In this document: in pieces, positions 29,801 through 36,705 of the stretch
How positions within the stretch are numbered: position 1 is the first letter of the stretch
Layout: each line of letters starts with the position of its first letter
Assembly: GCF_014058685.1 (NCBI RefSeq)
Contig: NZ_CP059055.1
Span: 930,001 to 994,000 of the forward strand
Direction: 5' to 3'
Source of the DNA: Lactobacillus johnsonii
GTDB lineage: Bacteria > Bacillota > Bacilli > Lactobacillales > Lactobacillaceae
Length of the DNA: 64,000 nt
Made by a program: the position numbers and the translations under genes
Notes under the pieces: generated by a model
Databases searched by the model: none
What the model saw: the letters and a program-made list of their open reading frames with translations, nothing else
What the model was told of the DNA's origin: nothing

Positions 29801-29840
29801 AAAAATAAACTAAGAAAAGGTATTCTTAGTTTATTTTTTC
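29801..29840 (+). terminator. Terminator after the small membrane protein
   Basis: AAAAATAAACTAAGAA (29801-29816) pairs with TTCTTAGTTTATTTTT (29823-29838), giving a strong U-tailed hairpin. A TATAAT box at 29857-29862 follows and is the likely promoter element for the PLD-ATPase gene. Confidence 0.85.
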
Positions 29841-29916
29841 GTTTTAAAAACTATGATATAATTTCTATGTAAGCGATACGAACATATGTGCGAAAATAAA
29901 AAGAAAGGGGATAAAT

Positions 29917-32124
29917 ATGCTAACAATTTATGATTTAAAGAATAATGTAATGCTTAAACAACCAGATTTCTTTAAGTTGGTCGAAGGATATGACTCTTTT
30001 AAGGGAGTTAGTTTTGTTGGAAGTTTTAAAATAATAGAGAAAGAGCTTTTGCCACGCTTTAAACAGATTGATCTAATTTTAGGGATGGAAGATCAGAAAA
30101 CTGGTAAGAATTTAGATCAATTATTAAATGTCTCTAATAAAGTAAAGCAGCTATTGTCTTTAAGTCGGGATTCGGACTTTTTAGATCGAATTGAAAATCA
30201 AACTTTAAATTTAAGATTCACTAAGGATGAACTTTTTCATAGTAAATATTTTATTATTGAAAATGATACTGATTTCATTATTTTCAATGGTTCAATGAAT
30301 CTTACTAAAAAAGCTTTAAAGCAAAATCATGAAATGCTTTGGATGTATGAAGGTAAGAAGAATGATTTACAGGATTTAAAAATCTATGAAGAGCATCAAA
30401 AGCTTTTTAAGAAGAATTTCGAAGAAGATAGTGTTGAATACTTAGATAGAAAAATTATCAATAATCTATATGGTAAAACTAAAAAGCAAATTACTGCAAT
30501 TATTGCAGATGAAGTAGTAGATAAAGTTCAACAAAATATTGTTGAAGTAAATCCGGAGGATATTGTAAAGATTACTAAGGATGCTGCTAGAAAAGAAGAA
30601 ACTTATGAGCTCCATCCTGAGACTGTTCAAAAAGTAGCTAAGCAACTTTTTACGGAAAAGGGTAATAAACGAAGAAATGAAGAAAAGGTCCGTGAAGAAG
30701 TTAAGAAAATTGTCTATCAAGACTTTAGTGATGCATCTCAAAACCGTGTAATAAAAGCTAGCACTCTATATCCTAAACCAGTTTGGGCTTATCAAGATAA
30801 TAATATTATTGTTGAAGATACAAACACTAATTTATTTCATTCGCTTGAAGTTAATTCGGACATAGTTAGTGAGGATGATGTTCGTACTTTTGTTAGAATT
30901 ATTGAAAGCTTTAAATTGAATAAGGTAAAAGATGAAAGTCACCAGGCACTTTCTGCATTTATTTATCTGATGACTGCTCCAATGATTTGGAAAATTCGTG
31001 AAATTTATCGTAAATCTAATTTTTCAAAAAGTGCTGATCAGATTCCTCTTTCGATGGTGTTAATTGGACGAGGCACTACTGGGAAAACGTTGTTAGTGCG
31101 AGATTATTTTAAGAAATTTACTGGAGATAAGTCCCATAGTTTGCAATACACTGAAATTAATGATGGTAATGGTGCTAGAACCGATAAAGCAGTTAGATTT
31201 TTAGATAATTATTTGCATTCTCAGCGTTTTATTTCTCCGATGATTGTCGATGAATTGAATAGTAATTTTTTACATAGTAAAGTGGCCCTTAATGCAATTA
31301 AGCAATGGTCTAATACTATTAAAGGAATTCATAATGTTAATATCTTTGCGATGAACCATAATGCAGGTAGTAAAGAAATTAACAATCTTGAAGAAATTAC
31401 CAAGCGTGTATATTACTTATCCTTTGAAGCTCCATGGCTTCCATCAAATCAACAAGAAATTAACTATAATATGTTAATTAATGATAATAATGACCATATT
31501 TATCGCTATGTAGTTTCTGAACTCAATAAGCGTTTAGTACATCTTACAGGTGAAGAAGAGGCAAATCTAATTGAAGATTATTTGAGCTTAACTAAAGAAA
31601 TCTTAGGAAACCTTTTGAAGAAATATGGCTATTATAATCGCTTAAAGAATATTTTAGGAGCTAACTACGATTATAAAATTGATCGCAATCGTATTACGTG
31701 GAAAATGTTAATTCTTGATGATCATTATGAACATATTGCGTTTACTGATGGAGATGATAAGTATTTCCATGTTTCAAAAGCAATTTTTAATGATTTTAAA
31801 GCCAATGGATATGAGAATATTAATCAAACTCTAGATAATTACTTTAATATGTTCCCACGAGAAGGCGGTATTGCAATTGAGCAATACGGTAATGGAATGC
31901 GTCTTGATATTGACAAGTTTGATAAGTTCATTGGTGAGCCATTAATTAGAAAGCACTATGAACGAATACATAAAGATGAAAAGCAGCAAGATAATGTGGC
32001 TGCTTTACTTAAAGCTCAAGTTGAGCAGAATAAGATGATGCAAGAAGCAGTTGAAAAGTTAACTGAACAAAAAGAGCAAGAAAATAAGAAAAAAGGTTTT
32101 ATTTCTCGTCTATTTAATCGTTAG
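29917..32124 (+). CDS. PLD-nuclease/P-loop ATPase fusion protein, possible defence or DNA-processing enzyme
   Basis: 735 aa. Residues about 1-170 form a phospholipase-D-type domain with one HxK...GSxN motif (His108, Lys110, Gly125-Ser126, Asn128), as in nucleases that dimerise to make one active site. A helical charged linker follows. Residues about 375-520 hold an ATPase with Walker A GRGTTGKT (384-391), Walker B PMIVDE (Asp445, Glu446), a sensor asparagine (NIFAMNHN) and ITKRVYYLSF, resembling the arginine-finger region of SF3-like helicases. The C-terminus is a coiled coil ending in a basic amphipathic tail (KKKGFISRLFNR). It is a single gene with its own promoter. I know no named system with this exact layout; the DNA-processing role is inferred. 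Confidence 0.75.
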   Translation: MLTIYDLKNNVMLKQPDFFKLVEGYDSFKGVSFVGSFKIIEKELLPRFKQIDLILGMEDQKTGKNLDQLLNVSNKVKQLLSLSRDSDFLDRIENQTLNLRFTKDELFHSKYFIIENDTDFIIFNGSMNLTKKALKQNHEMLWMYEGKKNDLQDLKIYEEHQKLFKKNFEEDSVEYLDRKIINNLYGKTKKQITAIIADEVVDKVQQNIVEVNPEDIVKITKDAARKEETYELHPETVQKVAKQLFTEKGNKRRNEEKVREEVKKIVYQDFSDASQNRVIKASTLYPKPVWAYQDNNIIVEDTNTNLFHSLEVNSDIVSEDDVRTFVRIIESFKLNKVKDESHQALSAFIYLMTAPMIWKIREIYRKSNFSKSADQIPLSMVLIGRGTTGKTLLVRDYFKKFTGDKSHSLQYTEINDGNGARTDKAVRFLDNYLHSQRFISPMIVDELNSNFLHSKVALNAIKQWSNTIKGIHNVNIFAMNHNAGSKEINNLEEITKRVYYLSFEAPWLPSNQQEINYNMLINDNNDHIYRYVVSELNKRLVHLTGEEEANLIEDYLSLTKEILGNLLKKYGYYNRLKNILGANYDYKIDRNRITWKMLILDDHYEHIAFTDGDDKYFHVSKAIFNDFKANGYENINQTLDNYFNMFPREGGIAIEQYGNGMRLDIDKFDKFIGEPLIRKHYERIHKDEKQQDNVAALLKAQVEQNKMMQEAVEKLTEQKEQENKKKGFISRLFNR

Positions 32125-34725: not shown

Positions 34726-35499
34726 ATGCAACGAAAAGATGTTGAAACTGAATTAGGTAAAATTAATTTTGTGTATCGAAAGGGTGAGCCATTAATTGTT
34801 TGTTTGAATAGCTTTGGCAGCTTTGATACAGCACAATCTTTTTTAAAGATAATAGATTCTTTACCAGAAAACTACGGGATATTTGCTCCAGATTATTTGA
34901 ATAGTGGTTTCAGTGGTAAATCGCTAAAAGGCTATACCATCGCTGATGAAGCTAATGAATTAGCAAGTATTATTAATACCTTTAAAGCAAAAAGAGTTAT
35001 TATTTTAGCTCATAGCATCGGTGGTGTTTATATGATGCCGATGAAAGATAAAATAAATAATTTGAAGGCTTTTGTTGGAATTGAACCAACTACTAGAGAA
35101 ATAATTTTGAATCCGCCTAAAGAAGCTGCTTATATTGAAAAAAGCAAGGATATGGAAAAGTTAGAAGATCAAATTAGAGCTGATTTATCAAATATTCTTA
35201 CTCCGGAAGAAAATAAAGACTTTTGGGATACTACGGAGCAAAATGTGCAGAAGTTCGATGAAAAAGATAATCAAAATGCCCAAGCTGCTCTTGAAAATGA
35301 TTCCTATTGGAAAAACGATCTAAAATTAGATGACGATATTACTAGTGTGTTGATTACTGAAGAGTATCGTCAAAAAGAATATAAACGTTCTGAATATGCT
35401 TCAAAAAATTCTAAAGTTGTTTCATTAGGGACATATCACTATATTCATTTTGAATACCCACGAGAGATTGCAAATATAGTGAAAGATGTTGCTGAATAA
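34726..35499 (+). CDS. Alpha/beta-fold hydrolase
   Basis: 257 aa. The pattern LIVCLNSFGSFDTAQSF, DYLNSGFSGKS, then nucleophile elbow ILAHSIGGVYMMP and a late HYIHFEYP histidine fits an alpha/beta hydrolase. A long acidic, helical cap (about 120-190, rich in EEDQN) separates the two halves. The substrate is unknown. The ribosome site (AAAGGGA) is good and the gene follows the NUDIX gene closely. The next gene, a transporter pseudogene, starts 28 bases downstream. Confidence 0.82.
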   Translation: MQRKDVETELGKINFVYRKGEPLIVCLNSFGSFDTAQSFLKIIDSLPENYGIFAPDYLNSGFSGKSLKGYTIADEANELASIINTFKAKRVIILAHSIGGVYMMPMKDKINNLKAFVGIEPTTREIILNPPKEAAYIEKSKDMEKLEDQIRADLSNILTPEENKDFWDTTEQNVQKFDEKDNQNAQAALENDSYWKNDLKLDDDITSVLITEEYRQKEYKRSEYASKNSKVVSLGTYHYIHFEYPREIANIVKDVAE

Positions 35500-35527
35500 G
35501 GATAGAGAAACTGAAAGGTTGATGATT

Positions 35528-36705
35528 ATGAAATCAAAAAGTGTAAGCTTTAAAATTGCAGTTTTATTTTTAACTTTTACGGCAGTGTTTACACTATTCC
35601 GATCATCAATGTCAGGAATATTTTCATTATTCTATGCTAAAAATGGTATCCCGAATGCTAATATTAGTTCAATAAAATCCTTTCAAAATATTGGTATCAT
35701 GCTAGGGTTGCTACCAGCAGGATATTTAGCAGATAGAATTGGAAGGCTAAAAGTTCTATCTTTATCTTCAATAGTTATTGCGAGTAGTTTTTTAATCCTA
35801 ATTCTATTTAGAAACTTTTTGTTCTTTTCTTTAGCGGAACTCTTATATGGACTTGGACTTGCACTTAATTCTGGGACACTCATTGCCTATATGACTGACT
35901 TGCAAGAGCAAAATCATCTTTCTCCGAATAGCAAATTAATGGGGATGCAAGTTATCATCCTAAATTTAACCACCTTAATAGGTGGAAATATTGGCACTGG
36001 GCTCTTTGCAATTACAGATACTGCACCAGTTTGGTTTGCATTGATTGGCTTAGGATTATATCCTGCGTTTATTTTTTTCATGATACAGTTTTTATCTTTT
36101 TCGGATAATAAGGCATCACATAAGCGGAAAAATAATATTAAAAATATTGCTAGTTTCTTTAAAAAAGAAATTTCTGGATATTGTTGTTGCTGAATGTTGG
36201 ATATGATTGTGGAACGCAATTTATTCTAATATATTGGTCGATTATCTACGTTGAAAAATTAGGCTTTAACTTATCTCTTGTCTATACCTTGTTTATGTGT
36301 GCACTTATTTTAGGCTCACTCATATTTAATAGGATATCAACATTTGCTAGTTCAAGAAGTATCACGATATTAAATGCAGTGTGCATGATTTTGGTGTTTG
36401 TTTTGAGTGGAATTATAGAAAATAAATATTTGTTGTTGACCCTTTTTCTATTAATTGAATTATTAATGGGGATGATGTCAGGACAGATTTCTGCTACTAG
36501 TAATGAAGCAATTTATGGAGAAAGCAACAAATCCACTATGCTTTCGACAGTTTCATTTATTGCTGAAATTTTAGTCAGTCTTTCTTTATTTGTAAGTAAC
36601 GCAATTATGAAGTGGGCTGGAAATTTAAAAGTAATGTTTTTTGTATCAGCAGCTTACTTCAGCATTGTTTTATTAATAATTCCGTTGATAAAGCAGAAGG
36701 AATAA
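35528..36705 (+). pseudogene. MFS transporter, frameshifted at an A6 run
   Basis: Starting at the ATG at 35528 (AAAGG 9 bases upstream), the first half has about six membrane helices and the MFS loop YLADRIGRLKVLS. It ends in a spurious ISGYCCC followed by TGA near 36190. The other frame carries the remaining helices from LLLNVGYDCGTQF to LIIPLIKQKE. One extra A in the A6 run at 36161-36166 gives FFKKRNFWILLLLNVGYD and joins the halves into about 393 aa. As written, the protein stops after six helices and would not transport. The original substrate is unknown. Confidence 0.85.

Follow-up and report, generated by a model that had tools for sequence, protein, structure and literature searches.

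A single-domain PLD nuclease fused to an SF3-like ATPase with a MinD-like C-terminal tail in Lactobacillus johnsonii: a candidate stand-alone defence protein

The window analysed here, a stretch of 64,000 nucleotides of Lactobacillus johnsonii DNA (contig NZ_CP059055.1, positions 930,001 to 994,000), carries a gene for a protein in which a PLD-type nuclease domain precedes a P-loop ATPase (Table 1), hereafter the PLD-SF3 protein. The gene lies among small GNAT, NUDIX, phosphatase and hydrolase genes, in agreement with an earlier note, made from the sequence alone, that had called the region accessory-looking. No integrase or known defence gene adjoins it in the window genome, and neither the window ORFs nor the corresponding annotated region of L. 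intestinalis revealed candidate partner genes near it. The record of L. intestinalis DSM 6629 contains a copy 98.4% identical, in a gene order much alike, annotated as 'phospholipase D family protein'. The own promoter that the earlier note had assigned to the gene is plausible from a by-eye reading of an extended -10 element and of a hairpin with a T-run standing between the PLD-SF3 gene and the upstream gene, but a consensus scanner listed neither of them upstream of the gene and found fewer promoter-like sites than the shuffled mean. Further along the window, an MFS transporter is split into two overlapping ORFs (35486-36193 and 36181-36705), probably by a frameshift, since in relatives (L107, L086) a single unbroken frame of about 400 aa encodes it.

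Table 1. Features of the PLD-SF3 gene and its upstream region, in window coordinates
Feature	Position	Strand	Basis
AT-rich hairpin and T-run, probable terminator of upstream gene	29803..29837 (about)	+	By-eye reading; absent from scanner list
Putative extended -10 promoter element TGATATAAT	29854..29862	+	By-eye reading; inference; absent from consensus scanner list
Ribosome-binding site GAAAGGGG	29903..29910	+	6 nt before ATG
Whole gene, PLD-SF3 protein, 735 aa	29917..32124	+	ORF intact, ATG start, no internal stop; homologues
N-terminal single PLD nuclease domain, residues 1-175	29917..30441	+	Pfam PLDc_2; RE_NgoFVII in homologues; structure matches SauUSI, NgoAVII
HxK catalytic motif H108-S-K110	30238..30246	+	Nearly invariant in 20 homologues
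GSxN motif G125-N128 (G125SMN128), then E139	30289..30300	+	G125, E139 invariant; S126, N128 nearly
Helical linker, residues 176-310 (AlphaFold2 helices 178-284)	30442..30846	+	AlphaFold2 secondary structure
P-loop ATPase core, SF3 (D5/P4-like) / AAA+, residues 311-520	30847..31476	+	Foldseek; hhalign to D5 proteins
Walker A GRGTTGKT (384-391)	31066..31089	+	G384, G389, K390 invariant
Walker B MIVDE (442-446)	31240..31254	+	D445 invariant
Motif C / sensor 1 IFAMN (476-480)	31342..31356	+	N480 invariant; aligns with IWMATN of D5 helicase
R497, putative arginine finger	31405..31407	+	Invariant; aligns with RR of D5 helicases
C-terminal domain, residues 521-684	31477..31968	+	AlphaFold2; D554, L556, W595 conserved
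Long helix / coiled coil, hypervariable, residues 686-725	31972..32091	+	AlphaFold2; sequence comparison
Basic amphipathic C-terminus KKKGFISRLFNR, putative MinD-like membrane-targeting sequence	32086..32121	+	Family tails, ORF counts, E. coli MinD tail

The N-terminal domain matches Pfam PLDc_2 (E=6.6e-10, residues 77-165), the only PLD model matched by the window protein itself; the restriction-PLD model RE_NgoFVII matches six of the homologues tested (E 1.5e-6 to 6.5e-9). PADLOC gave weak, partial matches confined to the PLD stretch, to ZacB (1.4e-7), DrmC (5.6e-6) and DpdK (3.5e-5), NCBIfam gave a sub-threshold DpdK match only, and a search of PDB sequences with the window protein returned no match; none of PADLOC, NCBIfam and PDB holds a full-length family for it. 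No recognition domain was found in the protein with Pfam, and no methylase or sensor is fused to it. The single HxK-GSxN nuclease domain named in the earlier note is borne out, in that both motifs were located and H108, K110, G125, S126 and N128 are invariant or nearly so. Each chain holds one HxK motif. A single HxK-GSxN motif makes up half an active site, and BfiI, NgoAVII and SauUSI dimerise; an active PLD-SF3 enzyme, having one motif only, would thus need a dimer.

Homologues about 20% identical, with catalytic and P-loop residues kept, occur in Lactobacillaceae, Clostridia, Arcobacter and Athalassotoga. In an alignment of 20 homologues, with identity down to about 20%, no variation is seen at G125, E139, W358, P377, G384, G389, K390, G403, P441, D445, K462, N480, R497, L556 and W595, and hardly any at H108, K110, S126 and N128, a degree of invariance in the PLD and ATPase residues that we judge to be far beyond chance. 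The helical linker, the GRGTTGKT ATPase, the IVDE Walker B and the putative RVYYLSF finger of the earlier note are likewise all present, G384, G389, K390, D445 and R497 being invariant and the linker helical in the AlphaFold2 model. That model (24-row alignment, mean pLDDT 79.9, pTM 0.57) shows an alpha/beta N-terminal domain, the helical linker, an alpha/beta ATPase, a C-terminal helical/beta part, the long helix 686-725 and a low-confidence tail.

The class of the ATPase was approached by structure and by profile alignment. The best PDB match of the full model in Foldseek is SauUSI (7.2e-6), followed by NgoAVII R (4RCT, 5.5e-4), AsfvPrimPol, MPXV E5, AAV Rep40, ORC and proteasomal AAA+ subunits, and in the viral structure library the named matches of the full model are largely D5/P4 primase-helicases; modelled alone (pTM 0.76), the ATPase part matches AAA+ proteins and MPXV E5/vaccinia D5. 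Alignment with hhalign to Lactobacillus D5 proteins extends over about 120 columns, from Walker A through Walker B and motif C to the arginine finger, and pairs IFAMNHN...EEITKRVYYLSFE with IWMATNHKP...MGIWRRLALIPFD of D5, at a probability of 53-68% and weakly against single D5 sequences; alignment to FtsH covers 29-49 columns only, around the P-loop. A profile search of PDB sequences was set aside, as it gave P-loop noise only, and Pfam yielded no SF3 match in the window protein. The Walker A, Walker B, motif C asparagine and arginine finger of SF3 are present in order. The ATPase is therefore best read as SF3 (D5/P4-like), a moderately supported assignment; the 'SF3-like' of the earlier note gains from Foldseek and the profile alignment, but the class is supported rather than proven because the low TM-scores from Foldseek do not exceed 0.3 of the query and the hhalign probabilities stay at 53-68%.

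Comparison with known systems places the protein beside, and not within, several of them. SauUSI is a type IV ATP-dependent restriction endonuclease (PDB 7CLG; PMC7913695). Similarly to SauUSI, its best PDB structure match, the PLD-SF3 protein would join an N-terminal dimerising PLD nuclease and an NTPase motor in one polypeptide. Differently from SauUSI, whose ATPase is SF2 helicase-like and which carries a modified-cytosine recognition domain, the PLD-SF3 protein has an SF3/AAA+-like ATPase and no such domain was found in it with Pfam, and membership in SauUSI-type type IV restriction was rejected on these two differences. NgoAVII, NgoFVII and BfiI share the PLD fold and the HxK-GSxN motif (RE_NgoFVII in homologues; 4RCT), but the PLD-SF3 protein lacks their B3-like DNA-recognition domain and has a motor in the same chain. 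Azaca ZacB, DISARM DrmC and Dpd DpdK resemble it in the PLD domain; those systems are multi-gene, whereas the PLD-SF3 gene stands solo, without full-length match or partner genes, and its assignment to any of the three was dismissed as only PLD stretches match. With SF3 primase-helicases of the D5/P4 type (MPXV E5, phage P4 alpha) the protein shares co-linear Walker A and B, the motif C asparagine and the arginine finger, as well as Foldseek matches, but it has no primase and no D5_N match, carries a PLD nuclease in front, and is encoded outside any phage or plasmid replication operon. We found no paper in the open-access literature that describes a PLD-SF3 fusion.

The coiled-coil tail ending in a basic amphipathic stretch, as the earlier note had it, is present in both its parts, but the conservation of the stretch and its likeness to MinD had been missed. 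A GFFxRLFK-like tail recurs across the family, behind a coil that differs freely between homologues: GFISRLFNR in the window, GFFGKIFGGK in Ligilactobacillus salivarius, GFFKKIFY in Arcobacter and NSFMKFFNR in a distant Bacillota homologue. A strict tail pattern, chosen after sight of the sequences, is found in 20 of the 39 family members versus 2 of 745 non-family ORFs at their loci, and several members outside it have related tails such as GIFGWLKKK. The E. coli MinD C-terminus reads KKGFLKRLFGG and the extreme C-terminus of the window protein KKGFISRLFNR, while the rest of the PLD-SF3 protein is unrelated to MinD. The MinD tail is an amphipathic membrane-targeting sequence that binds weakly as a single copy and with higher affinity on dimerisation (PMC8155659). 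Since the tail recurs in the family and resembles this sequence, it suggests that the PLD-SF3 protein is a membrane-tethered enzyme, an oligomer of which would carry several tail copies. A beta-clamp-binding reading of the tail was thought less likely, the tail being basic and without glutamine.

The distribution of the family is patchy. Matches occur in 10 of 61 relatives and 26 of 401 family genomes, counts that take in remnants as well as a small number of weak matches to PLD alone, and full-length homologues in about 10 of 399 Bacillota genomes. The tree shows two deep lactobacillus lineages, each across several genera; the window lineage groups with Limosilactobacillus, and the other comprises Lactobacillus, Limosilactobacillus, Ligilactobacillus and Companilactobacillus. 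Within the window lineage, several Lactobacillus genomes have the PLD-SF3 gene upstream of the same GNAT gene, near which others hold an N-terminal stub only (G011) or C-terminal stubs only (G016, G425), and one has a frameshifted copy at this site (G034). In other genera, two copies have internal deletions (L104, L101). Frameshifts interrupt the gene at L132 and L099, which were considered as two-gene forms and rejected, the frameshifts lying inside one gene. Intact copies gave dN/dS values of 0.08, 0.05 and 0.09, indicating purifying selection, with synonymous sites near saturation in the last two. Constraint alternating with loss is common for defence genes. Homologues in fixed housekeeping contexts in all strains, which the earlier note had held against its own proposal, were looked for as well; the gene is patchy, in many unrelated contexts, and no fixed context was found.

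A housekeeping role in DNA repair or competence, or genuine phospholipase activity at the membrane, would suit the PLD fold with its possible membrane tail and the annotation in the L. intestinalis record. We regard it as most improbable: the gene is absent from most relatives and repeatedly lost, homologues match the restriction-PLD model RE_NgoFVII, and the genome has separate two-domain PLDc_2 proteins, which are probably cardiolipin synthases.

SF3 motors are replication helicases of phages and plasmids, and the SF3 fold matches of the protein are replication proteins. The PLD-SF3 protein might accordingly serve the replication or maintenance of a mobile element, with a PLD origin nuclease in the place of HUH, and plasmids do carry copies in Ligilactobacillus salivarius and Arcobacter, where rep and par genes lie close by, and in Athalassotoga. 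Those plasmids, however, have their own Rep genes, chromosomal copies show no shared cargo, integrase or repeated flank, no PLD-SF3 relatives were found in phage records or IMG/VR viral contigs, and the PLD domain resembles restriction nucleases, so that a replicative role appears improbable.

Distant homologues have restriction and defence genes around them. Beside or near them lie McrBC (L075, L080), a TOTE primase-helicase (L078), GmrSD (L081), an N6-methylase (N6-MTase) with a specificity (S) domain (L083), a DNA methylase with a UvrD-PD-(D/E)XK protein (L016) and a PD-Lambda-4_A-like protein (L076), and in two lactobacilli (L126, L095) the type I RM protein HsdR. Most Lactobacillaceae copies, the window's included, are found among ordinary genes. 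A first PADLOC tally of neighbours versus random stretches was discarded as confounded, since one of the 8 control stretches, drawn from eight of the same genomes, was a BREX locus; a stricter comparison without that locus left the control with mostly generic families, in a sample too small to carry statistics. Directly downstream of the most distant homologues stands a protein of roughly 200 aa (L079:11083-11703, L082:11538-12116, L083:7598-8200), which by eye has a C-terminal HTH resembling that of resolvases and has no Pfam or PADLOC match; it is a possible partner of those homologues.

Taken as a whole, the protein is best explained as a stand-alone, ATP-driven, restriction-like PLD defence protein, to which we give a probability of about 0.55. 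The defence role in the 'candidate new defence or DNA-processing protein' of the earlier note is indirectly favoured by patchiness, plasmid copies, repeated decay and distant homologues near restriction or defence genes, but is weakened by the ordinary surroundings of most Lactobacillaceae copies. Subunits would come together through the SF3/AAA+ ATPase in a ring or smaller oligomer. With its one HxK-GSxN motif each PLD domain supplies half an active site, so two of them would join to make a metal-independent nuclease like those of the NgoFVII/SauUSI type. Foreign DNA would be engaged by the ATPase, most plausibly, as with other SF3 motors, at ends, forks or single strands, and the ATPase would then travel along it while PLD pairs nick or shred it. 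The amphipathic tails, singly weak and strong in an oligomer, could keep the oligomer on the inner face of the membrane, the place of entry of phage or conjugating DNA, with an anti-phage or anti-plasmid outcome. Against this reading stand one sub-lineage without PLD motifs (L105, L134) and the lack of a fused recognition domain, methylase or sensor, which leaves the choice between self and non-self unexplained.

The absence of a modification partner would be natural for an abortive-infection effector, whose ATPase would sense infection and set free a PLD nuclease without specificity, to break down all DNA or RNA and so kill the cell; the single-gene layout fits as well, and frequent decay suggests a costly gene. 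Such an effector, triggered for example by phage replication forks or by a phage helicase co-assembling with the ATPase, by itself leaves the conserved membrane-like tail unexplained, and we consider this reading unlikely.

The restriction-like defence reading may be taken further, to a new class of single-protein immunity in which a membrane-tethered SF3 motor, as a mimic of phage or plasmid replicative helicases, would seize foreign DNA at the membrane while it enters or replicates and would bring paired PLD nucleases to it, oligomerisation on DNA being coupled to membrane avidity through several MinD-like tails; this we put forward as possible, if doubtful. Restriction and anti-phage systems repeatedly contain PLD nucleases, whose usual companions are SF1/SF2 helicases and recognition subunits. 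One gene joining PLD, an SF3 motor of viral type and a conserved tail for membrane binding would, if the idea is true, be a distinct solution. It would raise the question whether self is told from non-self by place or by DNA structure, and would bear on how well gut and dairy lactobacilli resist phages and can be transformed.

The two homologues of the sub-lineage without PLD motifs (L105:7183-9621 and L134:9884-12340, 68% identical) have lost HxK and GSxN and keep the P-loop, the arginine and the tail. Outside the N-terminal region they differ by pN 0.147 and pS 0.636, so ATPase and tail are under purifying selection, and because PLD motifs are lost and the ATPase kept, the family ATPase can be maintained without a nuclease in cis. 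The L134 record is titled Faecalicatena absiana, and since the genes around its copy correspond to those at the Lactobacillaceae locus L105, the assembly may be misnamed or the contig a contaminant from a lactobacillus. A 1151-aa homologue (L092) was rejected as a domain swap, its middle being a run of N (assembly gap). Note also that two family members occur within one genome about 9 kb apart (L119:4-1299 and L119:9986-12220) and, in another case, in G362 (L089, L091). The window genome itself encodes a second single-PLD protein (G000:C1:53698-53994, L150) in a 953-aa open frame, which matches PLDc_2 and, weakly, RE_NgoFVII, and is possibly a PLD-helicase restriction-like protein.
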